From Cohaesibacter haloalkalitolerans (GTDB taxonomy: Bacteria > Pseudomonadota > Alphaproteobacteria > Rhizobiales > Cohaesibacteraceae), in assembly GCF_003574655.1 (NCBI RefSeq), contig NZ_QNUM01000003.1, positions 62,001 to 126,000 on the forward strand: DNA of 64,000 bases, given 5' to 3'. Under the pieces are notes generated by a model. That model was not told the origin of the DNA and did no database searches. It saw only the letters and a program-made list of their open reading frames with translations. Made by a program: the position numbers and the translations under genes. Within the stretch, counting starts at the first letter, position 1. Each line of letters begins with the position of its first letter. Positions 43,669 through 64,000 of this stretch are shown here, in pieces.

Positions 43669-45186
43669 ATGGATAGCTTCCTGATCGGCGCAGCCCAGAT
43701 TTTCACCTTCACCACGATCGCCTACATGGTCGCGGGGTCGATTGCCGGCATCATCGCCTCGGCCATTCCCGGCTTCACCGTGACCATGGCCATCGTGCTG
43801 ACCCTGCCGCTGACCTTCACCATGGAGCCACTGCAGGGCATCGCCGTCATGCTCTCGGTCTATGTGGGCGGCTACACCGGCGGCCTGATTTCCGCCGCTC
43901 TGCTCGGCATTCCGGGCACGCCATCCTCCGTTGCCACCACCTTTGATGCCTTTCCCATGGCCCGTGGTGGTGAAGCCGGTCGCGCCCTGTCCCTCGGCGT
44001 CTGGGCTTCCTTCTTCGGTACGGTCATTTCCACCATCGTGCTGATCGTGGCCGCGCCACCATTGGCCCTCATCGCGGTCAAGCTCGGCCCGTGGGAATAT
44101 TTCTCGCTCATCGTCTTCGCCCTGACGATCGTTGCAAGCCTTGTCGGCGACTCCGTCATCCGAGGCCTTATCGCCGGTCTCATCGGCCTTGCCATGTCGA
44201 CCGTCGGCAGCGACCCCATTCTCGGTCGGTCCCGGTTCGACTTCGGCTTCGAGATGCTCGAGACCGGCCTGCCGTTCCTTGTCGTCCTCATCGGCATCTA
44301 CGCCATTTCCCAGCTTGCCTCGGAAGTGGAGGATTCCCACAGTGTCCGCTCCGGCAGCAAGCTGGTCACCGGTGCCATCGACTTCCAGACCTGGAAGGTG
44401 ATGAAAGAAGTGCTCTCCCGTCCGGTCAACCTGATCCGCTCGTCGATTGTCGGCGTCCTGATCGGCGCTCTGCCGGGGGCAGGGGGCTCGATTGCCAACC
44501 TCGTTGCCTATGATCAGGCCAAACGCTCGTCCAGGACCCCGGAGGCTTTCGGCACCGGCATCCCGGACGGCATCGTCGCCTCGGAATCGGGCAACTCGGC
44601 CACAGCCGGTGGCGGTCTCATCCCGATGATCGGCCTCGGTATTCCCGGCTCGGCGGTTGATGCCATCCTCATGGCCTCACTGATGGTCCATGGCATTTCC
44701 GTGGGTCCACGCCTGATCATGGATCATTCCGATCTGGTCTACGGCATGTTCATCGCCATGGTGGTTTCCTCCTTCATCATGCTGATTGTCGCCATCTTCT
44801 CCATGCGCCTTTTCCTACGCGTGGCCGAAGTGCCCAAGTGGATCATTGTGCCGGTGGTCATGGTCTGTTGCGTGGTCGGGGCCTTTGCCCTACACAACCG
44901 CATTTCCGATCTCTATCTGCTCGGTTTCATCGGCGTTGTGGGCTACGTCCTCAGAGCCCTTGGCTATTCGCTGGCACCACTGGTACTGGGTGTCATTCTC
45001 GGGCCGATTGCAGAAACCAACCTGCGCCGAGCCCTGATGACCGATGGGGACCCGACCGTATTCTTCACCCGTCCCATCAGTCTTTTGTTCTTGATTGCCG
45101 CCGTCATCTCGATTGTCTGGGCTATCAGGACCCATCTGAAGAAACGCAAGACAGACGAAAGGTTTTTCGATGCAGCTGCGTCATGA
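43669..45186 (+). CDS. tctA: Tripartite tricarboxylate transporter large membrane subunit, TctA
   Basis: 505 residues, about 11-12 helices. The two conserved loops are intact: GYTGGLISAALLGIPGTPSSVATTFDAFPMARGG (about residues 65-100) and GIPDGIVASESGNSATAGGGLIPMIGLGIPGSAVDAI (about 300-340). ATG 43669 directly follows tctB. The 3' end overlaps the next gene by 17 bp, coupling synthesis of the transporter with a gamma-glutamyltransferase-like enzyme. Confidence 0.96.
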   Translation: MDSFLIGAAQIFTFTTIAYMVAGSIAGIIASAIPGFTVTMAIVLTLPLTFTMEPLQGIAVMLSVYVGGYTGGLISAALLGIPGTPSSVATTFDAFPMARGGEAGRALSLGVWASFFGTVISTIVLIVAAPPLALIAVKLGPWEYFSLIVFALTIVASLVGDSVIRGLIAGLIGLAMSTVGSDPILGRSRFDFGFEMLETGLPFLVVLIGIYAISQLASEVEDSHSVRSGSKLVTGAIDFQTWKVMKEVLSRPVNLIRSSIVGVLIGALPGAGGSIANLVAYDQAKRSSRTPEAFGTGIPDGIVASESGNSATAGGGLIPMIGLGIPGSAVDAILMASLMVHGISVGPRLIMDHSDLVYGMFIAMVVSSFIMLIVAIFSMRLFLRVAEVPKWIIVPVVMVCCVVGAFALHNRISDLYLLGFIGVVGYVLRALGYSLAPLVLGVILGPIAETNLRRALMTDGDPTVFFTRPISLLFLIAAVISIVWAIRTHLKKRKTDERFFDAAAS

Positions 45187-46759
45187 TCCCATTTATTCAT
45201 CCCGCCGCTCACCGGTTCTGGCTGACAATGTCGTCGCGACATCCCAGCCCCTTGCAACCCAGGCAGGCCTGACGATCCTGCAGCGCGGCGGCAATGCTGT
45301 CGACGCTGCCATCGCCACGGCTGCAACCCTGACCGTCGTGGAGCCGACCGGCAACGGCCTTGGGTCCGATGCCTTCTGCATCCTCTGGGATGGCAGGCAA
45401 CTGCACGGTCTCAACGCATCGGGCCGCGCACCAGCGGCCTGGACTGAGGATCGCTTCCCCAACGGGATGCCCGCCCATGGCTGGGACAGCGTGACCGTCC
45501 CCGGCGCTGTCAGCGCCTGGGTCGAACTGTCCGAACGATTTGGCAAGCTGGAACTCTCCGAGGTTCTGGCTCCCGCCATTCACTATGCCGAAGAAGGCTT
45601 CATTGTGTCGCCGGTAATCGGCGCTCTCTGGTCACGCGGAGCCGCAACACTGAAGGATCAGCCCGGCTTTGCCGACCACTTCATGCCCAACGGACGGGCT
45701 CCGAAGGCAGGCGAACGCTTCGTCAACCGGGCTCTGGCCAAAACCCTGAAGGCCATCGCCCAGACCCATGGTAAGGCCTTTTACGAAGGTGAGATCGCCG
45801 AGAAGATCGTCGCCTTTTCCAAGGCCAATGGCGGCGCGATGGCAATGTCCGATCTGGCCGAGCACAGCCTTGATTGGAGCGGCACGATCAGCCAGCCCTT
45901 CGATGACATCGACCTGCATGAAATCCCGCCAAACGGGCAGGGGATCGCCGCTCTGATGGCGCTTGGCATGCTCCAGCACACCACGATCCGAGATCACGGA
46001 CCGGATGACCTCGCCGCAGTGCATCTGCAGATCGAGGCCATCAAGCTCGCCTATGCCGACTTGCATCGCTATGTCGCCGACCGCCGCTTCATGAAGGATA
46101 TCCGGGAAACAGATCTTCTCGATCCGGACTATCTCAAGGCCCGTGCCCGGCTGATCAGCATGGACCGCGCCCAGAATCTCGGACCGGGGGCACCCAAGCG
46201 CGGCGGCACCGTGCTGCTCAATGCAGCCGATGCCTCGGGCATGATGATCAGCTACATCCAGTCCAACTACGCAGGCTTCGGCTCAGGTGTTGTGGTACCC
46301 GGCACCGGCATCGCCATGCAGAACCGCGGCTTTGGCTTCACCACCGAGGCAGGGCACCCCAACTGCGTCGGGCCGAAGAAACGTCCGTTCCACACGATCA
46401 TTCCGGGCTTTGCCATGAAGAGTGGCGCACCGCTTATGGCCTTTGGCATGATGGGAGGCCCGATTCAGGCTCAGGGTCACATGCAGCTCTTGCTCCGTAC
46501 CCAGCTTTGGGATCAGGATGTCCAAACCGCAGCCGATGCCCCGCGCTGGCGCATGATCGAAAATCTGGACGTCGCCTGCGAACCCCAGATGCCGGAGTCC
46601 CTGCTTGAAGGTCTGGTCGATCTTGGCCACCGCATCCAGATTGAAGCCCCGGACAATGCCTTCGGCTTTGGCGGTGCCCAACTGGTGCAAAAGCTCCCCG
46701 GTGGGGGCTATGCAGCGGGGTCCGACCCGCGCAAGGACGGACAGGCCGCAGGTTTTTGA
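45170..46759 (+). CDS. Gamma-glutamyltransferase family protein, cytosolic form
   Basis: 529 residues. PF01019-type features: SQPLATQAGLTILQRGGNAVDAAIATAATL, VEPTGNGLGSDAF, the HEIPPNGQG block, and the autoprocessing site with nucleophile Thr347 in KRGGTVLLNAAD followed by IQSNYAGFGSGVV and GHPNCVGPKKRPFHTI. No signal peptide, so it acts in the cytoplasm, unlike classical Ggt. Such enzymes hydrolyse gamma-glutamyl or N-acyl bonds after self-cleavage into two subunits. The 17-bp overlap with tctA implies the imported compound is its substrate. Could instead be a GGT-like cephalosporin/glutaryl-acylase relative. Confidence 0.9.
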   Translation: MQLRHDPIYSSRRSPVLADNVVATSQPLATQAGLTILQRGGNAVDAAIATAATLTVVEPTGNGLGSDAFCILWDGRQLHGLNASGRAPAAWTEDRFPNGMPAHGWDSVTVPGAVSAWVELSERFGKLELSEVLAPAIHYAEEGFIVSPVIGALWSRGAATLKDQPGFADHFMPNGRAPKAGERFVNRALAKTLKAIAQTHGKAFYEGEIAEKIVAFSKANGGAMAMSDLAEHSLDWSGTISQPFDDIDLHEIPPNGQGIAALMALGMLQHTTIRDHGPDDLAAVHLQIEAIKLAYADLHRYVADRRFMKDIRETDLLDPDYLKARARLISMDRAQNLGPGAPKRGGTVLLNAADASGMMISYIQSNYAGFGSGVVVPGTGIAMQNRGFGFTTEAGHPNCVGPKKRPFHTIIPGFAMKSGAPLMAFGMMGGPIQAQGHMQLLLRTQLWDQDVQTAADAPRWRMIENLDVACEPQMPESLLEGLVDLGHRIQIEAPDNAFGFGGAQLVQKLPGGGYAAGSDPRKDGQAAGF

Positions 46760-46818
46760 TCGCCGGGAACTGAAGACCGGAAGCAAGAAGTCCCCGCGCC
46801 GGACAACGTCCGGACCAG

Positions 46819-46855
46819 ATGGCCCCTTTTCGGCATAGCGCGGAGAAGGGGCCAT
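46819..46855 (+). other. Strong stem-loop between the GGT-like and SBF-family genes
   Basis: ATGGCCCCTT pairs perfectly with AAGGGGCCAT across a 17-base loop. No T run follows, so this is probably an mRNA 3' protecting or partial attenuating structure between two cistrons of one operon. Confidence 0.6.
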
Positions 46856-46916
46856 TCAGACACAAAGACAAGAGACAGGCCCGTTTCAGAGAGGCCTCGA
46901 CAATTCGGGAGGTGAC

Positions 46917-47927
46917 ATGAAGTTTCTCAAACGCATTGGTATCGACACATACATGTTGCTGTTGGTTGCGACAGTGTGTCTTGGCCTGCTGATCCCCGCG
47001 CGCGGCATCGCCATGACCGGGCTCGGTCATGTCACCTTCTGGGCAGTCGCTTTCTTGTTCTTCCTTTATGGAGCCAAGCTGGATGCCAGCTCGGTGAAGG
47101 CCGGGCTGATGAACTGGCGACTGCAGGGGCTGACATTTCTGGCAACCTATCTGGTGATCCCGATCATAGGTCTGGCTCTGGCGGCAACCTTCGGCCCACT
47201 GCTCGGCACGACAGTTACCCTTGGCCTGCTGTTCCTCGCCGTGCTGCCGTCCACGGTGCAGTCATCCATCGCCTTCACCTCGATTGCCGGGGGCAATGTG
47301 CCTGCCGCCATCTGTGCCGCCTCCGTTTCCAACATGATCGGTGTCGCCCTGACACCGGCCCTCGTGGCGCTGCTGATGCATCAGGGCACTGGCGGCGTCA
47401 GCTTCGATGCGGTGATCAAGATCAGCACCCAGATCCTGCTGCCCTTTGTTCTGGGCCAGATGGTGCGTCCGCTGATTGGCTCCTTCATCTCCAGACACAA
47501 GGTCTTGACCATGGTCGTGGACCGTGGCTCCATTCTGCTGATTGTCTACAAGGCCTTCAGCTCCGGCACCACGTCGGGCCTGTGGAATGCCGTCCCGGTT
47601 TCCAGCCTTGCCATGTTGTTCGTAGTCATCCTCATTTTCCTTGCGCTGACCATGGCGTCCATGATCCTTGGCGGTCGGGTTTTCAAGCTCGACTATCCGG
47701 ACAGTGCCGTGCTGTTCTATTGTGGCTCGACCAAAAGCCTTGCCAGCGGTCTGCCAATTGCCAGCGCCCTGTTTGCAGCCGATCAGGTGGGCGCGATCGT
47801 GCTGCCGATCATGATTTACCACATGAGCCAGCTCTTGGTCTGTGCCTATGTCTCGCAGAAAGCGGGCAGGCGCATTCGCGAGGAGGAAACCCGGCAGGGC
47901 GCATTGGCCAACCAAGGCGCCAAATAG
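46917..47927 (+). CDS. Bile acid:sodium symporter (SBF-like) family transporter
   Basis: 336 residues, nine to ten helices. Family-like blocks: FWAVAFLFFLYGAKLD near residue 40, VLPSTVQSSIAFTSIAGGNVPAAICAASVSN (about 108-140), and FYCGSTKSLASGLPIASALF near residue 265. These match the SBF-like CPA transporter subgroup rather than true bile acid carriers; such proteins move organic anions with sodium. Last gene of the tctCBA-ggt arm; possibly exports or imports a product of the enzyme. GGGAGG lies seven bases before the ATG. Ends at a bidirectional terminator. Confidence 0.88.
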   Translation: MKFLKRIGIDTYMLLLVATVCLGLLIPARGIAMTGLGHVTFWAVAFLFFLYGAKLDASSVKAGLMNWRLQGLTFLATYLVIPIIGLALAATFGPLLGTTVTLGLLFLAVLPSTVQSSIAFTSIAGGNVPAAICAASVSNMIGVALTPALVALLMHQGTGGVSFDAVIKISTQILLPFVLGQMVRPLIGSFISRHKVLTMVVDRGSILLIVYKAFSSGTTSGLWNAVPVSSLAMLFVVILIFLALTMASMILGGRVFKLDYPDSAVLFYCGSTKSLASGLPIASALFAADQVGAIVLPIMIYHMSQLLVCAYVSQKAGRRIREEETRQGALANQGAK

Positions 47928-48034: not shown

Positions 48035-48805
48035 CTACATGCCCTTGATCATGCCGCCATCAACCCGGATCATCGACCCGGTGACAAAGCTGGCCTGTTC
48101 CGAGCACAGGAAGGTGACGACGGCACCGAATTCTTCCGGCTTGCCATAACGGGCAGCCGGAATGGTTGCGCGTGACGCAGCCTTGACCTCATCAACAGAC
48201 TGGCCGCTCTTCTTGGCCTTGCCCGCATCAAGCTCGGCAAGCCGGTCGGTCGCAATGCGCCCCGGCAGTACCATGTTGACGGTGATGCCAGAGGCTGCCA
48301 CTTCGCTTGCCAGCGTTTTCGACCAGCCGGCAATCGCACCGCGCACGCCATTGGACAGCGCCAGATTGGGGATCGGGCTGACAATGCCGGACGAGCCGAT
48401 GGTCACCACGCGGCCCCAACCCTTGTCGGCCATCGCTTCCACGGCCTTGTCGGTGATGGCAAAAATCGGCGTTGCCATGGCGTTGAAGGCGGCAACCCAG
48501 GCTTCCACGCTCTGGCCCTTGGCCGGACCGGCAGCCGGTCCACCACAGTTGTTAACCAGAATGTCCACCGGCGTCTCACCAAGAAAGGCAATCACATCGC
48601 TCACCGACCCGGCATCGGCCAAATCAAGCTTGATGGTGCTTACCTTGTCCTTGAGACTCTCGGGCAAGCCAACAGGCAAAGCCCCGGACCGGGAGGCGGC
48701 GATGACATCAGCGCCTTCCTCAGCAAGCAGGATGGCCGATGCGGCACCAAGGCCGCGACTGGCACCCAACACGAGCGCACGTTTTCCCTTCAGACCAAAA
48801 TCCAT
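48035..48805 (-). CDS. SDR family protein lacking the usual YxxxK catalytic pair
   Basis: 256 residues. Cofactor fold ALVLGASRGLGAAS (GxxxGxG) near residue 11 and NNCGGPAAGP (NNxG region) near residue 88 place it in the short-chain dehydrogenase/reductase family. The catalytic Ser region is GSSGIVSPIPN, but where YxASK is expected the protein has SNGVR, so Tyr becomes Ser and Lys becomes Arg. A subgroup of SDRs with this LSNxxR pattern exists; its chemistry is unclear. Start overlaps the DapA-like stop by one base (TGATG). Last gene of the long minus-strand run. Confidence 0.88.
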   Translation of the reverse strand: MDFGLKGKRALVLGASRGLGAASAILLAEEGADVIAASRSGALPVGLPESLKDKVSTIKLDLADAGSVSDVIAFLGETPVDILVNNCGGPAAGPAKGQSVEAWVAAFNAMATPIFAITDKAVEAMADKGWGRVVTIGSSGIVSPIPNLALSNGVRGAIAGWSKTLASEVAASGITVNMVLPGRIATDRLAELDAGKAKKSGQSVDEVKAASRATIPAARYGKPEEFGAVVTFLCSEQASFVTGSMIRVDGGMIKGM

Positions 48806-49731
48806 CAGCCAAGCTCCTTCAATCTCTTTTCCTGTCGATCAATGATGCGATCGACCTCACTGCGGGCAGCAGCCGTCAGCCCCTTGCCCGGTTTGCGCAT
48901 CGCTTCAGAGGCGATCACGCCCCGTTTCTGCAACACATATTTGCGGACGGCAAGGCCCAGTCCCGGCTGCTGTTCATAACAGACGAGCGGCAGGTAGGCA
49001 TCATAGATATCCTGTGCCTTGTCCAGATCGCCCTTTTCGGCAAAGGCCACGATATCGCGCAGCATTTCGATATAGGCAAAGCCCGTCATTGCACCATTGG
49101 CACCGCGTGCCATGGATTCGGGCAGGAACAGCGCACCATTGCCGCACAGGATCGAAATGCGACGGCGACCGGCTTTCTCGGCCTCGCGCACGGCACTGAT
49201 CTTCTCCAGACCCGGCCAGTCTTCATGCTTGAGCATGACGATCTGTTCGTTCTGGTCGATGATCGTGCCAAGGGTATCGGTCGAGATATTGACCCCGGTG
49301 CTCAACGGAAAGTCCTGCAGAACCACCGGCGCACCGGCCCCGGCCGCTTCGCAGGCATTGGCATAATAGGCGATGATCTGCTCGTTGGTCTTGAGGTTGC
49401 CCGGAGGGGCGATCATCACACCGGCTGCGCCCAGATCCATCACCTTTTTCGACAATTCCGAGATGGCAGCAAGCCCCGGTGCAGATACACCGACAACGAT
49501 GGGCGCCCCATTGGCGCGTTTGATCACACGGCTCGCGATGTCTACGGCTTCTGCCTGCGTCATCTTGGGTGCTTCGCCCATCATGCCCAGCACGGTGATG
49601 CCCGTTGACCCCTTTTCCAGATAGAAGTCTGTCACCCGATCAAGGCTGTCAAAATCGATGGCGCCCTGTTCGTCAAAGGGCGTGACCGAGATCGAGAAAA
49701 CACCTTTGGTGTCATTGCTGAGAAGCGTCAT
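48805..49731 (-). CDS. Dihydrodipicolinate synthase (DapA) family aldolase/lyase
   Basis: 308 residues. GVFSISVTPFDEQGAID opening, TVLGMMGEAPKMTQAEA (usual GTTGE variant), and the Schiff-base Lys168 in VMLKHEDWPGL identify the class I aldolase family. The segment normally carrying Tyr133 (YNVPxRTG) reads QDFPLSTG, so the proton-relay tyrosine of DapA is missing and authentic dihydrodipicolinate synthesis is unlikely; a keto-acid lyase or cyclase role fits better. Good ribosome site (AAGGACGGAAC). Part of the catabolic run; coupled to the SDR gene downstream. Confidence 0.9.
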   Translation of the reverse strand: MTLLSNDTKGVFSISVTPFDEQGAIDFDSLDRVTDFYLEKGSTGITVLGMMGEAPKMTQAEAVDIASRVIKRANGAPIVVGVSAPGLAAISELSKKVMDLGAAGVMIAPPGNLKTNEQIIAYYANACEAAGAGAPVVLQDFPLSTGVNISTDTLGTIIDQNEQIVMLKHEDWPGLEKISAVREAEKAGRRRISILCGNGALFLPESMARGANGAMTGFAYIEMLRDIVAFAEKGDLDKAQDIYDAYLPLVCYEQQPGLGLAVRKYVLQKRGVIASEAMRKPGKGLTAAARSEVDRIIDRQEKRLKELG

Positions 49732-49750: not shown

Positions 49751-50881
49751 TTATTTTACAAATAGCTTACGGGGGAAATTGGTCAGTCTTTCGTAGCCCG
49801 TTTCCGTGATGGCGATGGTTTCTGACATACCGTAACCGCTCGCCAGAAGATAGGTATGGAATGTCTGGCCCGGTTCGAATTTCCATGTGCAGCTTGGCTC
49901 TGCCTCAAGGGGCTCGCCACCGTTCGGCTGCAGCAGAAGGCCGACCGAGTAGAAGGTCTTGTTGGTATAGGTCTCGCGCAGACCGGCAGACAGGATGCCG
50001 TCGCGATAGATGCTGTCCGGCACCGTTGCTGCCACACCGGGGCGTACTTCTGCAAGTGCCGCATCCTGAATGGCAATCAGTTTCTCGACGATAGCGTGAT
50101 CATCATCCCGTGCAGGAGCAATGCGGATCGGACGCATGAACCGGGCGTGATAGTGGTGAACGTTCGGGGTTACCTCGATCTGCACGATATCACCAGCCTC
50201 AAGCACACGGTCCGAATAGCCGCCATGCAGATGGAAGGCCCGCTCGCCGGACGACATGACCCCCGGTCCCGGCAGGTCGGATCCGGCCCGGATCATCGCC
50301 GCGCAGATCTGGGCAGCCATTTCGCGTTCGGACACGCCGACTTCAGACGCATCAATGGCAGCCTGCATCCCGGCTTCCGCCGCCTTGGCAGCAAGCCGCT
50401 GATAGGCGATCTCGGCCGGGCTCTTGATGAGCCGCATGGTCGGAGCCAGATTACTCTCGTCCTGCCAGAGAATGCCGGGGATGGCAGTCTTGAGATATTC
50501 GAAACGCCCGGCAGAAAGCGGCCATGCGGACAATTCGATGCCCAGTTTGGCATTCGGTCCCATCCGGCTGCGGATCGCATCGGCAGCCACCTTCATCCGA
50601 TCATCGCTGTCGGTCCACATCACCCGATCGGGAAAGACACAGGTCGTATCGAGATAGTATTCCTCGACATCGCGGCAGAAGAGGGTAGGCTCGCCGTCAG
50701 CGGGAATGATGGCAAACTGCAATGTGCCATAGGCGCGGGTATAATAACCGGTAACCCAGGTCACTGTCTCGGGCAGAAAGGCCACTAGGCCGTCGAGATC
50801 CCGTTTTTTGAGTTCGGCCTGAACGCGGGCAAGACGGGCGAGATATTCCTCGCGCTGGAACCAATAGGCAGGTGTCGGCAT
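49751..50881 (-). CDS. M24 (pita-bread) family hydrolase, metal-ligand-poor, paralog 1
   Basis: 376 residues. N-terminal creatinase-type domain (YWFQREEYLARLARVQAEL; VTWVTGYYTRAYG) and C-terminal pita-bread domain (LIKSPAEIAYQRLAAKAAEAG; AGDIVQIEVTPNVHHYHARF). True Xaa-Pro aminopeptidases have two Asp where this has Glu (QIEV) and a non-acidic residue (HARF), so dinuclear metal binding is doubtful. Creatinase and ectoine hydrolase show the same loss and hydrolyse C-N bonds without metal. AAGGAG lies seven bases before the start. Substrate unknown. Confidence 0.88.
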   Translation of the reverse strand: MPTPAYWFQREEYLARLARVQAELKKRDLDGLVAFLPETVTWVTGYYTRAYGTLQFAIIPADGEPTLFCRDVEEYYLDTTCVFPDRVMWTDSDDRMKVAADAIRSRMGPNAKLGIELSAWPLSAGRFEYLKTAIPGILWQDESNLAPTMRLIKSPAEIAYQRLAAKAAEAGMQAAIDASEVGVSEREMAAQICAAMIRAGSDLPGPGVMSSGERAFHLHGGYSDRVLEAGDIVQIEVTPNVHHYHARFMRPIRIAPARDDDHAIVEKLIAIQDAALAEVRPGVAATVPDSIYRDGILSAGLRETYTNKTFYSVGLLLQPNGGEPLEAEPSCTWKFEPGQTFHTYLLASGYGMSETIAITETGYERLTNFPRKLFVK

Positions 50882-55946: not shown

Positions 55947-56764
55947 CAATGGCTCCTTCGAGGGTCAAGGCTGTCGCGCAGGGCATCGCCAAACAGGTTG
56001 AAACCGAGCGCGGACATGGCAATGAACATGCCGGGAATGGCCACACACCATGGATTGCGGAACATGAATTGACGTGCTTCGGCAACCATCAGCCCCCATT
56101 CAGTACTCGGAGGCTGCGCCCCAAGCCCAAGAAAGCCGAGGGTGGCACCGATCATGATGGCAAAGGACACGCGGATGGTGGATTCCACGATGATGGGACC
56201 AAGCGCATTGGGCAGCACTTCACGGACCACGATGTAGATGCCGGATTCCCCGCGCGCCACGGCAGCACGGACATAATCGCGGGTACGCACCGACAGCACG
56301 GCACTGCGCGAGATGCGCGCCATGCCGGGCGCAAAGGCAACGGCGACCGCCAGCATGGCCTGCCCCATGCCACCGCCAAGCACAGTGACGATCAACAGCG
56401 TGAACAGCAGTTCCGGTACGGCCAGCAGACCGTCCAGAATGCGCATGATGGCGTTGTCGACCCAACCGCCTGCGACACCGGCCACAACACCGATGACAGC
56501 TCCGATGCTGACACCGAGCAATGTTGCGAACACACCGAACAGAACGGTCGTCGGCGCGCCATTGAGAATGCGCGACAACAGATCGCGACCGAACTGGTCA
56601 GTGCCCAGCAGATGGGTCATTGACGGTCCCTGAAGCCGGTTCAGGGCATCGAAGGCCTGCGGGTTATAGGGGGCAAGCCACGGACCGGCAATGGCGATTG
56701 CCAGCGTGAAGAGCAGGAGAAAGACGCCAACGAGAGCGTTGGGTGCCAGAAAGCTTTTAGGCAT
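55946..56764 (-). CDS. Peptide ABC transporter permease, DppC type
   Basis: 272 residues, six helices. HLLGTDQFGRDLLSRILNGAPT (about residues 51-72) is the OppC/DppC signature, and AAVARGESGIYIVVREVLPNALGPIIV is the EAA loop. Start overlaps the DppB gene by eight bases; its stop touches the ATPase start. Inner membrane channel subunit for small peptides or modified amino acids. Confidence 0.95.
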   Translation of the reverse strand: MPKSFLAPNALVGVFLLLFTLAIAIAGPWLAPYNPQAFDALNRLQGPSMTHLLGTDQFGRDLLSRILNGAPTTVLFGVFATLLGVSIGAVIGVVAGVAGGWVDNAIMRILDGLLAVPELLFTLLIVTVLGGGMGQAMLAVAVAFAPGMARISRSAVLSVRTRDYVRAAVARGESGIYIVVREVLPNALGPIIVESTIRVSFAIMIGATLGFLGLGAQPPSTEWGLMVAEARQFMFRNPWCVAIPGMFIAMSALGFNLFGDALRDSLDPRRSH

Positions 56765-57707
56765 AACGAACCCTTGGATCGAGTATGGCGATGATCACAT
56801 CTGAAAGGAAGTTGGACAGGGCGTAGACAGTGGCAAGAAGCAGGGTTACGGCCTGAATGACCGGCAGATCCCGGTTCTCCAGAGCATAGATCAAAAGACG
56901 CCCCAACCCCGGCCATGCAAAGATTTCCTCAACGACGATAATACCGCCGAGCAGATAGCCGATGTCCAGCGAAATGACCGCAACGGCAGGGGCCAGCGAG
57001 TTCGGCAGGGCGTGACGCCAGATCACCCGCTTTTCATTGAGCCCCTTGAGGCGCGCAGCGCGAATGAAATCCGATGACAACACCTCGGACATTTCCGACC
57101 GCACCTGACGGGAAATATGCGCCATCAGCACCAGACCGAGCGTGACCGCTGGCAGCACCACATGGGCAAGGAAATCCGGAATGCTGACCCACGGTGCCGT
57201 AAAACCACCGGCAGGGAATACACCCGTCTTTGGTGCAGCGAAAACGACCAGCAACAGCGTTGCCGTCACGAATTCCGGCAAGGCAGAGCCCATGTAGCTG
57301 AAGACAGCCAACAGGAGATCCATCACCTTGCCGCGGCTGACCGCAGCGATGGCGCCAAGAGGGATCGCGATGATGGTAACCAGCACAAGCGCCGTTCCTG
57401 CCAGCACGGCGGAATTGACGAAAGCTTCGCCAACCACGTCCGATACGGGCAGGGACAGACGCAATGACATGCCGAAGTCACCGTGAATGACGCCGCTCAC
57501 CCAGCTCAGATACTGCATGTACCAGGGCAGGTCGAGATGAAGCTGCTTCTCCAACGCCGCCACCGCATCGGGCGTAGCATATTCGCCCAATATCATGATG
57601 GCAGCGTTGCCCGGGAGCACCGCAGTAATCGCGAAAACCGCGAAAGTGACGATGACCAGAACAAGGAGAATGGACAGCAACCGGCGGAATAGATATCCGA
57701 TTGTCAT
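56757..57707 (-). CDS. Peptide ABC transporter permease, DppB type
   Basis: 316 residues, six helices. Opening IGYLFRRLLSILLVLVIVTF, LHLDLPWYMQYLSWVSGVIHGDFG and the EAA loop FIRAARLKGLNEKRVIWRHALPNS mark it as DppB/OppB. No strong ribosome site is seen before the ATG, so translation may depend on the DppA transcript 18 bp upstream. Pairs with DppC. Confidence 0.95.
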   Translation of the reverse strand: MTIGYLFRRLLSILLVLVIVTFAVFAITAVLPGNAAIMILGEYATPDAVAALEKQLHLDLPWYMQYLSWVSGVIHGDFGMSLRLSLPVSDVVGEAFVNSAVLAGTALVLVTIIAIPLGAIAAVSRGKVMDLLLAVFSYMGSALPEFVTATLLLVVFAAPKTGVFPAGGFTAPWVSIPDFLAHVVLPAVTLGLVLMAHISRQVRSEMSEVLSSDFIRAARLKGLNEKRVIWRHALPNSLAPAVAVISLDIGYLLGGIIVVEEIFAWPGLGRLLIYALENRDLPVIQAVTLLLATVYALSNFLSDVIIAILDPRVRYA

Positions 57708-57725: not shown

Positions 57726-59270
57726 CTATTTGTCCAACCAGACGTTTTCGAAGTAGAAGTAGCGGTTGATCGGAGCCAGATTGTAGCCCTCGGTCTTGTC
57801 GCTGGACGCAGTCAGAAGGTCTTCCCAGAACGGGATGATATAGACCTGGTCATCGAGCATCATCTGCTGGGCCTTGGCGTAGATTTCTACACGTTTGATC
57901 GGATCGAGAGTTGCCCGACCTTCATCAACAAGAGCGTCGAACTCCTTGTTCTTCCATGCAGAATCTTCATAGGACGCATCAGAAGTGACCAGCAGGCGGA
58001 AAGCCGCATCAGCGGTTGGCTGCATACCCCAGTAACCGATGTAGAAGTCGCCCTTCATCCAGACATTGGCCAGATAGGTGTCGTGCGGCATGGTTTCGAC
58101 CTCGATGTCGAAGCCTGCTGGCAGGGCCATCTGCTTGATGGCAACGGCAACCTGTGCACGAATGGCCGGACGGTTGGAAGCAACCATGGTGACCTTGAGG
58201 CCATCCGGATACCCGGCTTCGGCCAGCAGGGCCTTTGCGGCTGCCGGATCATACGGGATTTCCGGAGAGTCGATGACATACTGATATTCCGGCGACAGGA
58301 TGTTGTCATAGGCCGGACGGCCCAGGCCTTCCAGAATGACATCCACCAGCATCTGGCGGTCAACAGCCATGGCCAGAGCCTTGCGAACCCGCACATCGCT
58401 CCATGGCTTGGCGTCGTGACGCATCACCACGTTGACGAAACGGCCCGACGGAATACGCTTGGCTTCGATGCCAGCAGACCCGGCAATGCGCTCATAGTCG
58501 GCCTGCTGAACCGTCAGCATGACGTCCATCTGGCCATTGAGGAAGTTGGCAGTTTCAGCGGCAAGATCGGGGAAGAGGTGCATTTCGACCGCATCAAGAT
58601 AGGGCTTGCCAGGGATGAAGTAGTTCTCGTTCTTGACCAGACGCACCATCTGGGCACTGTCGTAGGTTTCCAGCTTGAAGGGACCAGTACCGTTGACGGT
58701 GGTTTCCAGCGTTGCCGGATCCGCTTCCAGCGCCTTGCGCGACACGATGCGGGCGTTGGCATGGGCAGTGGCCGTCGGAAGGTCGGCAAACGGAGACTTG
58801 AGCTTGAACACAACCGTCAGATCATCAGCAGCGGAAACGCTGTCGATCATGGTCAGAACCGAGCGGGCAGAGGCCGGACGATCCGGATTGAGAATGGCTT
58901 CGTAGGTCGCAACCACATCATCGGCGGTCAATGCTGAACCATCATGGAAGGTAACGCCCTTGCGCAGCTTGAACGTGAAGACGGTTGCGCCCTCGCTGCC
59001 TTCCCAGCTCTCAGCCAGATCGGCCATCGGCTTGTTGTCGACACCGATGCGGGTCAGACCGGAATAGAGCATGTCGAGACACGGATATTCGGCCGGTCCG
59101 GACAGTGTCAGCGGGTTCAGCGTGGCGATACGGGTGGAATGACTGACCTTCAGAATGCCCCCGGCCTTCGGAGTAGCGGCGGAAGCCATGCCGATGCTGG
59201 TCATGGGAATAAGGCCAGCGGCGGCCATGCCCAACATTACTCCGCGGCGGGAAATCGTAAATTTGCTCAT
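57726..59270 (-). CDS. Peptide ABC substrate-binding protein (SBP family 5) with Tat-like signal
   Basis: 514 residues. The signal region has SRRGVMLGMAAAGL, a twin-arginine pattern, ending near ASA, so export may be by Tat. Mature body: GGILKVSHSTRIATLNPL, WEGSEGATVFTFKLRKGVTFHDGSALTADDV (classic family 5 block, about residues 95-125), NGTGPFKLETYDSAQMVRLVKNENYF and VRKALAMAVDRQMLVDVILEG. Periplasmic receptor for the DppBCDF importer downstream. GAGGG lies nine bases before the ATG. The ligand may be a dipeptide or a modified amino acid cleaved by the operon's hydrolases. Confidence 0.94.
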   Translation of the reverse strand: MSKFTISRRGVMLGMAAAGLIPMTSIGMASAATPKAGGILKVSHSTRIATLNPLTLSGPAEYPCLDMLYSGLTRIGVDNKPMADLAESWEGSEGATVFTFKLRKGVTFHDGSALTADDVVATYEAILNPDRPASARSVLTMIDSVSAADDLTVVFKLKSPFADLPTATAHANARIVSRKALEADPATLETTVNGTGPFKLETYDSAQMVRLVKNENYFIPGKPYLDAVEMHLFPDLAAETANFLNGQMDVMLTVQQADYERIAGSAGIEAKRIPSGRFVNVVMRHDAKPWSDVRVRKALAMAVDRQMLVDVILEGLGRPAYDNILSPEYQYVIDSPEIPYDPAAAKALLAEAGYPDGLKVTMVASNRPAIRAQVAVAIKQMALPAGFDIEVETMPHDTYLANVWMKGDFYIGYWGMQPTADAAFRLLVTSDASYEDSAWKNKEFDALVDEGRATLDPIKRVEIYAKAQQMMLDDQVYIIPFWEDLLTASSDKTEGYNLAPINRYFYFENVWLDK

Positions 59271-59367: not shown

Positions 59368-60546
59368 TCAGGTGATCACGGTCAGATCATCTGGCAAAGC
59401 GGTCAGGACTTCAGGGGCCCCATCTGTGATCAACAGGGTGTGGCCAACACCCATGGCAAGTCCGGTGTCACTGTCACCGTTCATGACATGGTAGAAAAGG
59501 GTCATGCCGGGCTGGCATTGGGTCGGATTGCCCGAATAGATCATCGGCGGCACATCCATGCTGGTTGGAGCAAAATTGCAGCCGACCGAATAGCCCGTCG
59601 CGCCATAGCGGGCCCGACGATAGCCACCAGCATCCAGACCTGCGGCATAGAGATCGAAAATCTCGCCAAGAGTGGTGCCTGGACGGGCGATTTCCGTCAT
59701 CCGGTGCAAGGTCTCCATGCCCACGTCATACATCTTGCGATGCGCGTCGGAGACGGTACCGAACAGGATCGTCCATTCGGTCTTGACGTTGTAATGACGA
59801 TAGGCAACCGGATATTCCGCCAACACCTGATCCTGCTTTTCGATCCGACGCGGATCAGACACGCCACGGCCATAGACGGCACGGTTGCCCGAATTGAAAA
59901 TCGGGGCATTGGGCGGCATGTCGGCACCCTGGCCGAGGATCGAGGTGAGATAGGCGGCTTTCAGGTCGCTATCGAGAACACCCGGTCTGGCTGCGTCGAT
60001 GACCGCCAGAAGCGAATTGTCGAGGATTTCAGCGGCCTTGCGGGAGTAGGCGATTTCTGCGGGGGACTTGATTACACGGAGGCGGCGAATCATGTGGTCG
60101 TCATTGACCAGAGTACACCAGCCGTTGAGCGCGTTCTGCACACGCCAGAGGTTCCAGCCAGTGAGACCATGTGTATTCAGCTCAATGGCAATTTTCTTGC
60201 CCTCAAGGCCAAGCTCGGCAAGGATGCCCTTGAGATCCTGTGCAGGATCGGCTTCCTCCGAATCCCACCAGATGCGGATATCTGTGATCGTGCTGGTCTG
60301 TCTGGCCTGCACCAGATCGGGGCGTCTGGTCAGAAGAATCGGCTCACGGCCATCTGCAGGGACAACAAGGCACTGAAAGAAGACAAATCCGCCAGTATCA
60401 AAGCCCGTAAGCCAGTACATGCTCTCTTGAGAAAATACCAGCATGGCTTCACAGCCGGCTTCTCTGACTTTCTGACACAGCCGCCTGTAGCGTGAAGCAT
60501 GCTCCTCTCTTGTAAAAGGGAGGCTTGGTTGAGCAAGGCTTTCCAC
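59368..60546 (-). CDS. M24 (pita-bread) family hydrolase, metal-ligand-poor, paralog 3
   Basis: 392 residues from a GTG at 60546 (AGGA ten bases upstream); the open frame extends further but crosses the operator and has no family character. Blocks: AMLVFSQESMYWLTGFDTGGFVFF, RRLRVIKSPAEIAYSRKAAEI, QVLAEYPVAYRHYNVKTEWT (both canonical metal Asp replaced), GYSVGCNFAPTSMDVPP and MIYSGNPTQCQPGM. Closest in the window to paralog 2. First gene of the minus-strand run, divergent from the GntR gene, so directly exposed to that regulator. Confidence 0.88.
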   Translation of the reverse strand: MESLAQPSLPFTREEHASRYRRLCQKVREAGCEAMLVFSQESMYWLTGFDTGGFVFFQCLVVPADGREPILLTRRPDLVQARQTSTITDIRIWWDSEEADPAQDLKGILAELGLEGKKIAIELNTHGLTGWNLWRVQNALNGWCTLVNDDHMIRRLRVIKSPAEIAYSRKAAEILDNSLLAVIDAARPGVLDSDLKAAYLTSILGQGADMPPNAPIFNSGNRAVYGRGVSDPRRIEKQDQVLAEYPVAYRHYNVKTEWTILFGTVSDAHRKMYDVGMETLHRMTEIARPGTTLGEIFDLYAAGLDAGGYRRARYGATGYSVGCNFAPTSMDVPPMIYSGNPTQCQPGMTLFYHVMNGDSDTGLAMGVGHTLLITDGAPEVLTALPDDLTVIT

Positions 60547-60592
60547 GAGTGGTTCATCCTTTTTCGATCGTTGCGTTGCATTGAGCTTAAAG

Positions 60593-60608
60593 TATGGTAT
60601 ACCAAAGG
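60593..60608. promoter_or_regulatory. Candidate GntR operator 1 (TGGTATACCA palindrome)
   Basis: TATGGTATACCAAAGG contains the 10-bp palindrome TGGTATACCA (60595-60604), a form typical of FCD-type GntR operators. It sits between the M24 hydrolase gene (start 60546, minus) and the GntR gene (start 60770, plus), and its core recurs upstream of pxpA. Confidence 0.7.
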
Positions 60609-60769: not shown

Positions 60770-61429
60770 ATGCTGATCGAGACCAGTAAGCGACTGGCCC
60801 AACAGGCTTATGAACAGATTCTGGAGCTGATCCTGACAGGCAAGGCGGAGCCGGGCGAAATGCTCACCGAGCGTCGACTTGCGGAGACGCTGGACATGTC
60901 CCGCACCCCCATCAGGGATGCCCTGCTGATGTTGGAGAGCGAAGGCCTTCTGAAGCGTCATGGCAGTCGCGGACTACAGGTCAAGCAGATGCGCATCGAG
61001 GACTATATGGAAGTGCTCCAGATTCGCCTGATGCTCGAACCGGAAGCCGCAAGGCTCGCCGCCGGGCGCATTCCCGCCGAAACCCTTGCCGATCTGCGTG
61101 AGCGCCTTGAAGGGCTGATCAAAGATGCCGACAAGGGGGAGGCCCGACCGGATCGTGAGACGGTCCGCGCCGTCGATGATGGGCTGCATGGTGCAATCGC
61201 CAACATGGCAGGCAATGCCCATCTCGCCCAGATCATTCATTCACTCAGACGTCAAACCCAGATTTTTGACCTGCGCAGCATGCCTGAGCGCCTGACATCC
61301 ACCTGTCGGGAACATCTGACCCTCATCGACCTGCTGGAACAAGGCCGGGGCGACGAGGCGGCTGCGGCGATGCGAGAGCATCTGGACCATGTTCGCGCCA
61401 GCATTATACGGAGACTTACGCCGCAATGA
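60770..61429 (+). CDS. GntR family regulator, FadR/FCD subfamily
   Basis: 219 residues from ATG 60770; the open frame upstream (to 60581) reads through the promoter and is not family-like. Winged helix: LAQQAYEQILELILTGKAEPGEMLTERRLAETLDMSRTPIRDALLMLESEGLLKRHG. FCD effector domain from about residue 75 with conserved His and Asp/Asn (HGAIANMAGNAHL; CREHLTLIDLLEQG) that bind a metal in many members. Likely autoregulatory and controlling both arms of the catabolic locus through the GGTATACC sites. Stop overlaps the next start (ATGA). Confidence 0.94.
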   Translation: MLIETSKRLAQQAYEQILELILTGKAEPGEMLTERRLAETLDMSRTPIRDALLMLESEGLLKRHGSRGLQVKQMRIEDYMEVLQIRLMLEPEAARLAAGRIPAETLADLRERLEGLIKDADKGEARPDRETVRAVDDGLHGAIANMAGNAHLAQIIHSLRRQTQIFDLRSMPERLTSTCREHLTLIDLLEQGRGDEAAAAMREHLDHVRASIIRRLTPQ

Positions 61430-62742
61430 CCCCAAACGCGGAGAGCGCTGTCGCTCTCGATCAGGATGGACACAACCAGCCACCCGCCGACATCGCCCTT
61501 GCGCGCAGGCTTTTTGACGAACTGGAACACCGGACCAGCAATGCTTTCGGTTTTACCCGCCCGTCCTTCGGGCTCGGCGAACAGATTGCCCATGACATGG
61601 TTCGGCGCGAAGCCCGTAAACTCGGGCTAGAGACGACAATCGACGCAGGCTGCAATCTCTACATGACCCTCAGGGGCCGCAAGAGCGGCCCCGGTCTGGT
61701 CATCGGCTCTCATCTGGATTCGGTGCCCCGTGGCGGCAACTTCGATGGCGCAGCCGGTGTCCTGATGGGTCTGGCTGTCCTGTCCGGTTTCGTCAAGGCG
61801 GGTATCACGCCTGAACGCGACATCACCGTCATGGCCATCCGCGCCGAGGAAAGTGTCTGGTTTGGCGCATCCTATATTGGCAGCCGCATGGCCTTCGGCC
61901 TCATGGACAGCAAGGAGCTGATGGCTCTCAAGCGCTCATCCGACAAGGTCTCTCTTCATTCCGCAATCGAAGCCAATGGCGGCGATGCTGCGGCGATCGC
62001 TGCCGGTGAGGGCTATCTGTCCCCTGAGACTGTCGGCATGTTCATAGAGCCCCACATCGAGCAGGGGCCAGTGCTGGTGGAAAGGGAAATCCCAGTTGGC
62101 ATCGTGACAGGCATCCGCGGTTCTTTCCGGTTCCGCGCCGCCCGCTGCCTTGGCGAATATGGTCACTCCGGCGCCACACCGCGCACCTATCGAGCCGACG
62201 CCGTCCGCGCCGTTTCCACACTGGTCGTGCGCATGGATGAAGCATGGATGAAACTGGCCGAAGAAGGACACGATCTGGTCGTCACCTTCAGCCAGTTCTA
62301 TACCGACCCGGACGAAGCCGCCTTCAGCAAGATCGCCGGAGAGGTGGCCTTTTCCCTCGATGTACGCAGCGAGGAACAGGAAACGCTGAACCGCATGCAG
62401 ACCATTCTGCACGAAACCGTTGCCAAGATCGAAACGGAACAGAATGTCCGGTTCCAGATGGGCACGGTTTCAACCAGCACACCGGCGATCATGGCGCCCG
62501 GGATCGTCAAGGGGCTCGAAAAATGCGCGGAAGATCATGGGCTTGAAACCCTGACCATGCCCTGCGGGGCTGGCCATGACGCCGCCGTGTTTGCCGGGGA
62601 AGGGGTGCCCACGGGAATGATCTTCATCCGCAATGACAATGGCAGTCACAATCCCGAAGAACATATGGAAATGAGCGACTTCACAAAAGCGGCCGAACTA
62701 CTGTCGGCCTTTTGCCTTTCCGACCCCATCTCCGCGCTTTGA
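61426..62742 (+). CDS. M20 family Zn-dependent amidase (hydantoinase/carbamoylase type)
   Basis: 438 residues. Motifs: IGSHLDSVPRGGNFDGAAGVL (His/Asp metal ligands, about residue 90), RAEESVWFGASYIGSR (Glu pair), EPHIEQGPVLV (metal His), SFRFRAARCLGEYGHSGATP (dimer lid), MPCGAGHDAAVF (late His). This is the N-carbamoyl-L-amino acid hydrolase / allantoate amidohydrolase / ureidopropionase group. Cytosolic. Translationally coupled to the GntR gene, so substrate or product is probably sensed by that regulator. Exact substrate not assignable. Confidence 0.93.
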   Translation: MTPNAESAVALDQDGHNQPPADIALARRLFDELEHRTSNAFGFTRPSFGLGEQIAHDMVRREARKLGLETTIDAGCNLYMTLRGRKSGPGLVIGSHLDSVPRGGNFDGAAGVLMGLAVLSGFVKAGITPERDITVMAIRAEESVWFGASYIGSRMAFGLMDSKELMALKRSSDKVSLHSAIEANGGDAAAIAAGEGYLSPETVGMFIEPHIEQGPVLVEREIPVGIVTGIRGSFRFRAARCLGEYGHSGATPRTYRADAVRAVSTLVVRMDEAWMKLAEEGHDLVVTFSQFYTDPDEAAFSKIAGEVAFSLDVRSEEQETLNRMQTILHETVAKIETEQNVRFQMGTVSTSTPAIMAPGIVKGLEKCAEDHGLETLTMPCGAGHDAAVFAGEGVPTGMIFIRNDNGSHNPEEHMEMSDFTKAAELLSAFCLSDPISAL

Positions 62743-62744
62743 TC

Positions 62745-62770: not shown

Positions 62771-62910
62771 TCACCATTCTGCAAGACATGCCTTCATGGC
62801 CACCGACCCCAGTGCGCAGATGGGACAGCAAGCCGATGCGCCCAGACACCGAGCCAATGCCTATGCGCAGCACAGCATCGCGATAAGATAACTCGGATTG
62901 GCAAGGCGTT

Positions 62911-62938
62911 GGAAAAGCCGACCGTGGGCCGTCGGCTT
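62911..62938 (-). terminator. Second hairpin with minus-strand T run
   Basis: AAGCCGAC (62915-62922) pairs with GTCGGCTT (62931-62938), followed on the minus strand by TTTTCC. No minus-strand gene that would need it is visible. Confidence 0.4.
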
Positions 62939-62948
62939 GCCTTGTCAA

Positions 62949-62964
62949 TCCGGTATACCAAATG
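62949..62964. promoter_or_regulatory. Candidate GntR operator 2 upstream of pxpA
   Basis: ATCCGGTATACCAAATG shares the core GGTATACCAAA with the site at 60593; GGTATACC at 62952-62959 is palindromic. It lies about 125 bp before the pxpA start codon. Confidence 0.65.
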
Positions 62965-63087
62965 TATCCATAATACTGCAAAGAATAGCAAGAACCTGCC
63001 GGTCACATTCATGCGTCAAAGATCCGTCACACATGGATGGGACAACGGCATGGCACGCATCACCAGAACACAAGAAGGGAACTCAAG

Positions 63088-63861
63088 ATGGGCAAATCCG
63101 TCGATTTGAACTGTGATATGGGAGAGGGCTTTGGCGCTTACCGCATTGGCGACGAGGCGGCCATGCTTGATATTGTCACCACCGCCAACATCGCCTGCGG
63201 ATTTCATGCTGGCGACCCTGTGGTGATGCGCGAAACGATTCTGGCAGCAAAAGAGCGCAAGGTCTCCATCGGAGCCCATCCGTCCTTCATGGATCTCTAT
63301 GGCTTTGGTCGCCGCCGCATTCTTGGTGACAGCCCTGAAGATCTGGAAGCGCAGATCGTCTACCAGATTGCCGCCATCGACGGCATGGCCCGTGCCCTCG
63401 GCTGGCCAATCACCCACATGAAGACCCATGGCGCGCTCGGCAACATGGCAGCCGAAGATCCTGAGTTGGCGGCCATCTGCATTCGGGCAACCAAAGCCGT
63501 CAATCCTGATCTGGTGATCGTTGCCCTGCCATATTCCGAGATCATGAAAGCGGCCGAGAAGGCCGGGATGGCCGTGGTTTGCGAGGTCTATGCCGACCGC
63601 ACCTATACGGCAGAGGGCATGTTGACCCCGCGCAAGGAACCCGGAGCCGTCATCAAGGATCACGCCCAATCCGTGGAACAGGCCCTTACCATGGTGCGCG
63701 ATGGTTTTATCCCCACCACTGCGGGAACAAGACTGCCGGTAGAGGCCGCCTCCATTTGCGTCCATGGCGACACCCCCGGCGCCGTGGCCACGGCTGGTCA
63801 ACTGCGCACGGCCTTCCTTGACGAGGGGATTGAAGTTCGCCCCTTTGCCTTTCCTGCATGA
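63088..63861 (+). CDS. pxpA: LamB/YcsF family protein, 5-oxoprolinase subunit A
   Basis: 257 residues. Diagnostic motifs: VDLNCDMGEGFGAYRIG at the N-terminus, ANIACGFHAGDPVVM, IGAHPSFMDLYGFGRR, and HMKTHGALGNMA near residue 120. PxpA with PxpB and PxpC forms the ATP-dependent 5-oxoprolinase that opens pyroglutamate to glutamate. ATG 63088 has AAGGGA upstream; the frame back to 63037 is not family-like. The gene that starts at 63965 is in the right place for pxpB. Probably controlled by the GntR protein through the upstream site. Confidence 0.93.
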   Translation: MGKSVDLNCDMGEGFGAYRIGDEAAMLDIVTTANIACGFHAGDPVVMRETILAAKERKVSIGAHPSFMDLYGFGRRRILGDSPEDLEAQIVYQIAAIDGMARALGWPITHMKTHGALGNMAAEDPELAAICIRATKAVNPDLVIVALPYSEIMKAAEKAGMAVVCEVYADRTYTAEGMLTPRKEPGAVIKDHAQSVEQALTMVRDGFIPTTAGTRLPVEAASICVHGDTPGAVATAGQLRTAFLDEGIEVRPFAFPA

Positions 63862-63964
63862 TCAGTCATTAAGACAGGCTGTTGAAATCGGCCATTGACT
63901 GTCGGCACCCCCGGCAGGACAGTTTCATTCATACTTTTCAGCATACATTCAGGAGCATTTCATC

Positions 63965-64000
63965 ATGACGGATTCAGCCAATTCCATTGAGGCAAGAGAC
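63965..64000 (+). CDS. Start of a further gene, cut by the window edge (expected pxpB, not provable)
   Basis: An ATG at 63965 with AGGAG nine bases upstream opens MTDSANSIEARD and runs to the window end. Only 12 codons are visible, so identity rests on position: pxpA is normally followed by pxpB and pxpC or biotin-carrier genes. Confidence 0.55.
   Translation, partial: MTDSANSIEARD

Follow-up and report, generated by a model that had tools for sequence, protein, structure and literature searches.

A candidate catabolic regulon with three predicted metal-free pita-bread hydrolases, apparently undescribed, in Cohaesibacter haloalkalitolerans and other bacteria

Do the neighbouring genes for uptake and for the hydrolysis of carbon-nitrogen bonds found in Cohaesibacter haloalkalitolerans belong to one catabolic system, and which compound might it consume? 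The question is raised by the right part of the 64-kb stretch of DNA analyzed here (the window), which covers bases 62001-126000 of a contig (C18) in a 5.0-Mb genome (G000). A preliminary description had proposed that three gene arms between 45170 and 64000 form an undescribed system that imports a blocked or cyclised amino-acid derivative, opens it and ends in pyroglutamate or glutamate. Gene families were assigned by protein-family scans, which agree with those named at the time (GGT-like, SBF-like, short-chain dehydrogenase, DapA-like, three M24, a stand-alone glutamine amidotransferase (GATase), two M20, a Dpp-type ATP-binding cassette (ABC) importer and PxpA), to which the regulator gene gntR has to be added. 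Comparison with other genomes indicates that two of the arms, at 48035-63861, form one patchily distributed putative catabolic regulon with a local FCD-type GntR gene and a shared operator-like site, whereas the left arm stands apart.

The first of these two arms is read on the minus strand in the order m24a-dppA-dppB-dppC-dppDF-m20-m24b-gat-m24c-dapA-sdr, from 60546 down to 48035, with neighbours that overlap or lie close together (m24a is followed by a gap of 97 bases, and gaps of 78 and 137 bases precede gat and m24c). It opens with m24a (59368..60546; PF00557 and PF01321; GTG start deduced) and the importer, namely the peptide/opine-type solute-binding protein gene dppA (57726..59270; PF00496), the permease genes dppB (56757..57707; PF00528, PF19300) and dppC (55946..56764; PF00528), and dppDF (54234..55949), whose product of 571 residues fuses the importer's two ATPases (PF00005 twice). 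Then come m20 (53021..54259; PF01546; start uncertain), for an ArgE/DapE-type amidohydrolase, m24b (51799..53007; start deduced), and the genes of the two core enzymes, gat (51019..51720; PF00117), for a stand-alone class-I glutamine amidotransferase-like hydrolase of the gamma-glutamyl-peptidase type, and m24c (49751..50881; PF00557 and PF01321). The arm ends with dapA (48805..49731; PF00701), for a lyase or dehydratase of the DHDPS/KDA-dehydratase superfamily, and with an optional member, the short-chain dehydrogenase gene sdr (48035..48805; PF13561/PF00106). The products of m24a, m24b and m24c are predicted metal-free pita-bread hydrolases, and each of these three M24 proteins of the block carries a Creatinase_N domain. 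On the plus strand, divergent from m24a, gntR (60770..61429; PF00392 and PF07729) and carb (61426..62742; TIGR01879) encode the FCD-type GntR regulator and an M20 hydrolase of the N-carbamoyl-amino-acid type, and are followed by pxpA (63037..63861; NF003814; real start probably ATG 63088), for 5-oxoprolinase subunit A.

That these genes belong together is indicated by their distribution. The m24c sequences of seven genomes were aligned, and 84,980 species genomes were scanned with two conserved peptide patterns, which find close relatives only; 57 loci were obtained, with a best segment 66-95% identical (one of them, L084, is cut within m24c). Gene presence at these loci was read from tblastn maps with identity thresholds of 30-60% depending on the gene, many loci being cut at 10 kb or less. 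gat accompanies m24c in all 57 (directly adjacent in 45, with a binding-protein gene in between in 12), and the association is therefore more than chance. Among the regulator and hydrolase genes, gntR was found in 46 loci, m24a in 37, carb in 35, m20 in nine and m24b in eight; dppA was present in 37 and dppB in 36, pxpA in 32, pxpC in 29, and pxpB and the gene of a D-2-hydroxyacid dehydrogenase (hadh) in 26 each, with lower counts for dapA (13), sdr (5), ggt (1) and tctA (1). Twelve loci were read on both sides; they were chosen for having pxpA and hadh, so that the 12/12 of these two is a matter of choice, and they hold the full pxpABC set with hadh in 12/12. In the same loci dppA, dppB, dppC, dppDF, m24a, carb, gat and m24c each reach 12/12, m24b, gntR and dapA each 11/12, m20 9/12 and sdr 3/12. 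A plasmid locus of Rhizobium sp. SSA_523 (L172) carries 14 of the genes to be expected up to its cut end, and the same-genus genome G197 (L018) has both PxpB and PxpC genes. Judged by gene content, the families of the block travel together outside Cohaesibacter, in Rhizobiaceae, Rhodobacterales and others, and the block of about fourteen genes seems to have been passed as a unit among several groups of soil and sea bacteria. It is rare: m24c gave matches at E<=1e-110 in 2 of 385 genomes of the class, its own included, and gat at E<=1e-40 in 9 of 297 genomes of the order, its own included, two of these being 36-38% identical with no m24c in view.

The block also appears to carry its own putative on/off switch in the DNA, a palindromic operator, TGGTATACCA, with the core GGTATACC. 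The window has an exact match at 60595..60604, in the divergent promoter region of m24a and gntR, and a site with one mismatch to it, CGGTATACCA, at 62951..62960 upstream of pxpA (both are given without strand). These correspond to the two best operator-matrix matches in the whole 64 kb, at 60590 (25.2) and 62946 (16.1); in 20 shuffled windows the best score was 9.3 on average and 18.0 at most. As a putative operator the first site is clear by itself, while the second gains weight because it is placed upstream of pxpA and because G219 and G197 (L016 and L018) have the core in that very position. Among the 57 scan loci, the core was found in 32 of 34 m24a-gntR gaps, with an 8-of-10 match in the two others (L048 and L053), in 28 of 30 pxpA-gat gaps, the two without it (L071 and L074) being loci in which gntR is also not seen, and upstream of gntR in 10 of the 12 loci of a second architecture described below. 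When the window and three pre-scan loci are included (one genome being counted twice), it is present in 36 of 38 m24a-gntR regions, where letter shuffles give 0.1. Over 72 loci or 1.32 Mb, in which a few genomes are present twice, there are 91 operator sites vs 2.6 expected under a first-order Markov model. Both predicted sites are present in L172, which was fetched later and not used for the motif. In many relatives TTGAC lies beside the site (GTCAACCA in 27/38 gaps), which suggests that the GntR regulator overlaps the m24a promoter as a repressor. When 10 whole genomes were searched with the operator for additional members of the regulon, few sites lay beyond the locus, and in most of these genomes the reversed pattern, used as a control, gave comparable or higher counts. 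Promoter and terminator scans returned no more than shuffled sequence does, including a terminator-like stem between carb and pxpA (62691-62709), of a kind equally frequent in shuffles, and Rfam gave zero matches in window positions 40000-64000.

The second architecture shows which genes form the constant part. At these 12 loci (five Bosea, Chelatococcus, Microvirga, Pinisolibacter, Prosthecomicrobium, Nitratireductor, Pantoea and Gluconacetobacter) the order is gntR-gat-solute-binding protein-m24c-fused permease-ATPase, the importer is an ABC system of the opine/gamma-aminobutyrate (GABA) type, dapA is present in six (between gntR and gat in Nitratireductor) and sdr in three. Genome G625, found later with 59% identity, likewise has gat, the binding protein, m24c, dapA and a permease together. 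In the m24c tree (midpoint root, L084 left out), all 43 rows of architecture 1, the arrangement of the window, fall in one group with support 92/98, which also holds two architecture-2 rows and two unclear ones, and three plasmid relatives of 46-50% identity, with an importer made of binding protein, permease and ATPase, stand apart from all other rows. The tree mixes families, with Arboricoccus (Geminicoccaceae) inside Rhizobiaceae, and Aurantimonas and Faunimonas among Rhodobacterales, which is in line with transfer. Comparison of the loci points to a putative inner module of m24c and gat, often with dapA and sometimes with sdr, and to a putative outer module of m24a, m24b, m20, carb, PxpABC, the D-2-hydroxyacid dehydrogenase and the dipeptide/opine-type Dpp importer. 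In our reading, the inner module (m24c, gat, dapA and a small-molecule importer) would be the older one, to which architecture 1 would have added Dpp, m24a, m24b, m20, carb and PxpABC.

More distant operons resemble this inner module. Five of them (L167, L168, L169, L171 and L178), with the same three-part type of importer and an M24 protein 46-50% identical to m24c, lie on the symbiosis plasmids R. binae p5, Phyllobacterium p_unnamed3, S. meliloti pHRC017, S. medicae pMl2 and Paraburkholderia pSYMBR3459. They encode an Asp/Glu racemase (5/5), a D-2-hydroxyacid dehydrogenase (4/5) and an aminotransferase with succinate-semialdehyde dehydrogenase (SSADH; 2/5). They differ from the block by the racemase, by having no GGTATACC site and by a PuuD-type gamma-glutamyl-GABA hydrolase in place of gat; this hydrolase is annotated in R. 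binae, Phyllobacterium and Paraburkholderia and has no annotated counterpart on pHRC017 or pMl2, the gene tables being incomplete. The R. binae and Phyllobacterium operons combine M24, hydroxyacid dehydrogenase, gamma-glutamyl-GABA hydrolase, class-III aminotransferase and SSADH. In Neorhizobium NCHU2750, a 34% M24 relative is followed by a 'glutamine amidotransferase' (34% identical to gat over 165 residues), with a carbamoylase and ArgE near the pair. On the Salipiger abyssi plasmid pPABY7 (L177), a pair of neighbouring M24 genes lies close to an M20 hydrolase gene and to an ABC importer, which may point to a further pathway of this sort.

What the enzymes might do is best approached through the M24 proteins. 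Metal-dependent M24 peptidases such as prolidase and aminopeptidase P bind metal through five ligands, D, D, H, E and E. When aligned with DoeA and a metal-dependent prolidase, m24a, m24b and m24c all carry Glu where the first ligand Asp would stand, Tyr in place of the ligand His and, at the second Asp, a residue that is no ligand; the D, D and H positions are thus replaced, the Glu columns being less surely aligned. The replacing E and Y are kept in 40/40 rows of m24a, 8/8 of m24b and 57/58 of m24c, the remaining row being cut short. The three proteins should therefore be metal-free hydrolases and not metallopeptidases. The preliminary description had named ectoine hydrolase among the M24 members that lack metal ligands, and DoeA itself has the matching replacements (Asp to Glu, His to Tyr). 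It is also the nearest solved relative of m24b and m24c, the two proteins covered by this search, and its own M24 fold follows from the model scores and the solved-structure match found here. Against the ectoine-hydrolase models TIGR02993 and NF038259 (cut-offs 613 and 575 bits), m24a scores 125.8 and 145.2, m24b 116 and 175.9, and m24c 127.6 and 154.3 bits.

The partner enzymes are placed with varying precision. The nearest solved relative of gat is gamma-glutamyl peptidase 1, which we take to be the Arabidopsis enzyme; it is distant (E = 2e-19 over about 157 residues) and shares the class-I GATase fold and a Cys-His-Glu triad, C88/H180/E182 in gat, kept in 58/58 rows. By fold family and triad, gat thus resembles a gamma-glutamyl-peptidase-type hydrolase. 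TIGR01879 assigns carb with 254.8 bits (cut-off 204), and six presumed metal or catalytic residues are kept in 38/38 rows, while m20 stays below the cut-off of TIGR01910 (161.6 against 217.6 bits) and PxpA exceeds that of NF003814 (348 against 226). The DapA-like protein falls short of TIGR00674 (106.8 bits vs 206.15); its nearest solved relatives are 3dz1 and then L-2-keto-3-deoxyarabonate dehydratase, with which it shares a QDxP motif. All 17 rows have Lys at the Schiff-base position and the Gln of this motif; in the DHDPS superfamily this Lys forms the Schiff base, and true DHDPS has Tyr at the Gln position. The nearest solved relatives of DppA are 5u4o and then AgaA, and those of the architecture-2 binding protein of L050 are 4i1d, which carries no ligand name, followed by mannopine (MotA), GABA-sensor and agropine proteins.

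Among the described systems close to the block is ectoine breakdown, which the available text of PMC5924519 sets out as hydrolase, deacylase, aminotransferase and semialdehyde dehydrogenase, in that order. The block shares with DoeA/EutD and DoeB/EutE a predicted metal-free M24 hydrolase feeding an amide hydrolase, with the same ligand replacements, and two related plasmid operons add the class-III aminotransferase and SSADH. It differs by its three M24 proteins, by a GATase instead of DoeB, by PxpABC and the carbamoylase, and by an FCD-GntR regulator where ectoine catabolism has the MocR-type EnuR.

On this basis we propose a pathway in which the Dpp system would import a pseudo-dipeptide containing a glutamate-like unit, and the ectoine-hydrolase-like, metal-free M24 enzymes would hydrate amidine, guanidine or ring C-N bonds to amides or ureido groups. 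Partner amidohydrolases would complete each reaction, as DoeB does after DoeA: gat after m24c (a gamma-glutamyl amide giving glutamate and an amine), m20 after m24b (N-acyl hydrolysis) and carb after m24a (N-carbamoyl hydrolysis). The order of C-N and then amide hydrolysis is proposed because the pair of metal-free M24 and gamma-glutamyl-type amidase recurs. PxpABC would reclaim 5-oxoproline arising by cyclisation, DapA and the dehydrogenases would finish the carbon skeleton, and GntR would be a repressor relieved by substrate or product. The pyroglutamate end point of the preliminary description is retained, 5-oxoproline being likely, with all three Pxp subunits (PxpA, PxpB, PxpC) seen in many relatives. 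Taken as a whole, from conserved regulon through import, metal-free C-N hydrolysis and amide hydrolysis to 5-oxoproline salvage, we place this pathway a little below an even chance; its regulon part rests on comparison, and its chemistry is what we infer from the protein families. A more ambitious version is possible, if on the unlikely side when all its parts are taken jointly: a mobile alphaproteobacterial pathway for unrecognised natural pseudo-dipeptides joining an amidine or guanidine to a gamma-glutamyl or pyroglutamyl unit, with three metal-free pita-bread hydrolases that each have their own amidohydrolase partner, and with an older inner module M24c-Gat-DapA and a later outer module stripping a larger conjugate.

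Several observations weigh against the proposal. The pairing of M24 proteins with amidohydrolases is incomplete, since m20 is missing from 3 of 11 loci with m24b, is present without m24b in the L071/L124 locus, and m24a occurs without carb in L049 and L054. The block of the window has no pxpB or pxpC beside pxpA; PxpB homologues are present elsewhere in the genome. No M24 protein comes near the curated ectoine-hydrolase cut-offs, the margin being wide. As to the regulon, the second window site (16.1) scores less than the best of the 20 shuffles (18.0), 9 of 100 shuffled sequences contain at least two matches to TGGTATACCA when one mismatch is tolerated, and the operator is absent from the architecture-2 loci L055 and L081, from the Roseomonas plasmid L170, from the five plasmid relatives of 46-50% identity and from the 6.5-kb contig of G625.

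The best of the alternatives is a hydantoin or guanidino route, in which the M24 enzymes would remove the imino nitrogen of a creatinine-like or hydantoin ring, PxpABC would act as an ATP-dependent hydantoinase and the M20 carbamoylase would release the amino acid. Such a route would account for the order carb then hadh-pxpB-pxpC in 23 of the 35 loci with carb, for the match of carb to the hydantoinase/carbamoylase model and for the creatinases among the solved relatives of m24c. However, the scores of PxpA and PxpB are those of usual 5-oxoprolinase subunits, the partner seen most constantly, gat, would be left without a role, and no creatininase or HyuA-type hydantoinase turned up in the family scans of the window block, and we regard this route as clearly unlikely.

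Improbable, too, is the use of glutamine-type Amadori or opine compounds such as fructosyl-glutamine, mannopine and agropinic acid, whose lactam would need a 5-oxoprolinase and whose gamma-amide would need a GATase. The binding proteins supply its support, AgaA being the second-best solved relative of DppA, and mannopine, GABA-sensor and agropine proteins standing just below the best match in architecture 2, together with the kinship of dapA to a sugar-acid dehydratase. But this binding-protein kinship is broad and its best match, 4i1d, names no ligand, the three M24 proteins and the carbamoylase would have no role, and no sugar kinase or opine oxidase was seen in the block.

The simple use of 5-oxoproline or pyroglutamyl peptides, with the peptidase-like genes as accessories, would liken the block to pxpTABC/PxpR of C. 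glutamicum, a 5-oxoproline system under a local GntR repressor (PMC13274462, in its available part). PxpABC and a GntR regulator do co-occur in both. Yet the C. glutamicum cluster, as described in that part, has an APC transporter where the block has a Dpp ABC importer, lacks M24, GATase and M20 enzymes, and has a different operator, a 17-bp repeat. Moreover, pxpA is seen in 32 of the 57 loci (many of which are truncated to at most 10 kb), compared with m24c and gat in all, and among the 12 architecture-2 loci pxp genes are in view only in L055. We hold this explanation to be quite improbable.

That all three arms, including TctABC, GGT and SBF, serve one gamma-glutamyl pathway, as the preliminary description had it, is largely refuted and now very improbable. 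The left arm, tctC-tctB-tctA-ggt-sbf (42193..47927, plus strand), is a separate conserved unit beside the block and outside the regulon; its TctABC genes lie at 42193-45186, to the left of the segment first assigned to the system, which they overlap by their last bases. Its GGT-like protein reaches 296.7 bits with TIGR00066, below the cut-off of 357.85, and 475 bits with Pfam, where the cut-off is 27. Among 18 same-genus genomes, m24c occurs in six and a GGT orthologue (at least 79% identity) in nine, namely in 6/6 genomes with m24c vs 3/12 without (Fisher p = 0.009, shared descent being uncorrected), a co-occurrence that shared descent may explain but that may also reflect a link between the arms. 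Although the arms adjoin in G000, G302 and G303, these are only three of the six m24c genomes; the GGT arm lies more than 2 Mb from m24c in G219 and G197 and on a different contig in G298, and GGT occurs without m24c in G288, G256 and G301. At a threshold of at least 35% identity, ggt and tctA each occur in only 1 of the 57 relatives. tctA-ggt-sbf hold together in G302, G303, G288, G219, G298 and G197 (tctA is matched by a fragment only in G256 and not at all in G301, where a short stretch is in view), and form, as far as gene order tells, a conserved unit of their own in Cohaesibacter. The shared operators once proposed for all arms are found for the two right-hand ones, whereas the regions upstream of tctC, ggt and sbf have matrix scores below zero. 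The left arm was accordingly rejected as part of the system for its separate placement, GGT without m24c and the missing operator; in a synteny comparison it is the scattered element, and the two other arms stay together in gene order and operator.

A divergent ectoine or hydroxyectoine locus is scarcely credible, for although the solved protein closest to m24b and m24c is DoeA and the top-ranked NCBIfam models for all three M24 proteins are those of ectoine hydrolase, the three score 116-176 bits vs cut-offs of 575 and 613, and ectoine breakdown as presented in the available text of PMC5924519 has no place for three paralogues, gat, PxpABC and a carbamoylase.

The proposed pseudo-dipeptide pathway would be carried by what appears to be an operon of DoeA-like hydrolases that is new in its composition and has a defined regulon. 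Searches of open-access literature aimed at the gene set or the operator yielded no description of either, related searches with other aims listed no title that names the set, and the system of C-N hydrolases is, as supposed at the outset, apparently undescribed. A loose list of hydrolases becomes a defined unit, characterised by its genes, its regulator gene, its operator sequence and two transporter architectures and known from named host strains, which makes the substrate findable by ordinary screens (binding-protein ligands, derepression of the regulator, growth). It would also bear on M24 proteins annotated 'Xaa-Pro peptidase family' despite a missing peptidase metal site, including a paralogue that roughly one in three of the genomes sampled from the order possesses.

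Genes at the margins of the block were also considered. A class-III aminotransferase gene directly follows pxpA and crosses the end of the window (window 63965-65329; L005:1965-3329); in G219 and G197 (L016, L018) none was detected next to pxpA. Class-III aminotransferases 32-36% identical to it lie downstream of m24c in 8 of the 57 relatives. Downstream of the block in four relatives, a class-III aminotransferase was seen in four, a CN_hydrolase in one and a MocR-type regulator in two, and all three were rejected as block parts, being too inconstant. At L039:11534-14643 and L085:5509-8730, downstream of gat-m24c, a MocR-type regulator with GntR and class-I/II aminotransferase domains adjoins a class-III aminotransferase. 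N-acetylglutaminylglutamine amide was considered as the substrate of the system on account of an asparagine-synthase-like gene at L005:3391-5250, and dropped because this gene, which passes the general asparagine synthase model, fails the osmolyte model (182 bits, below the cut-off of 570).

Finally, matches to m24a at E<=1e-80 occur in 105 of 297 genomes of the order, the 4 block genomes included. An M24 paralogue that shares about 40-45% identity with m24a, and is predicted to be metal-free like DoeA, has housekeeping genes as neighbours in 6 of 8 regions read (L159, L160, L161, L162, L165 and L166; M24 at about 10.0-11.2 kb), beside lgt, a MidA-like methyltransferase gene and a PgeF/YfiH-like laccase-domain gene, then prs, and the other two regions, L163 and L164, have an ABC importer.

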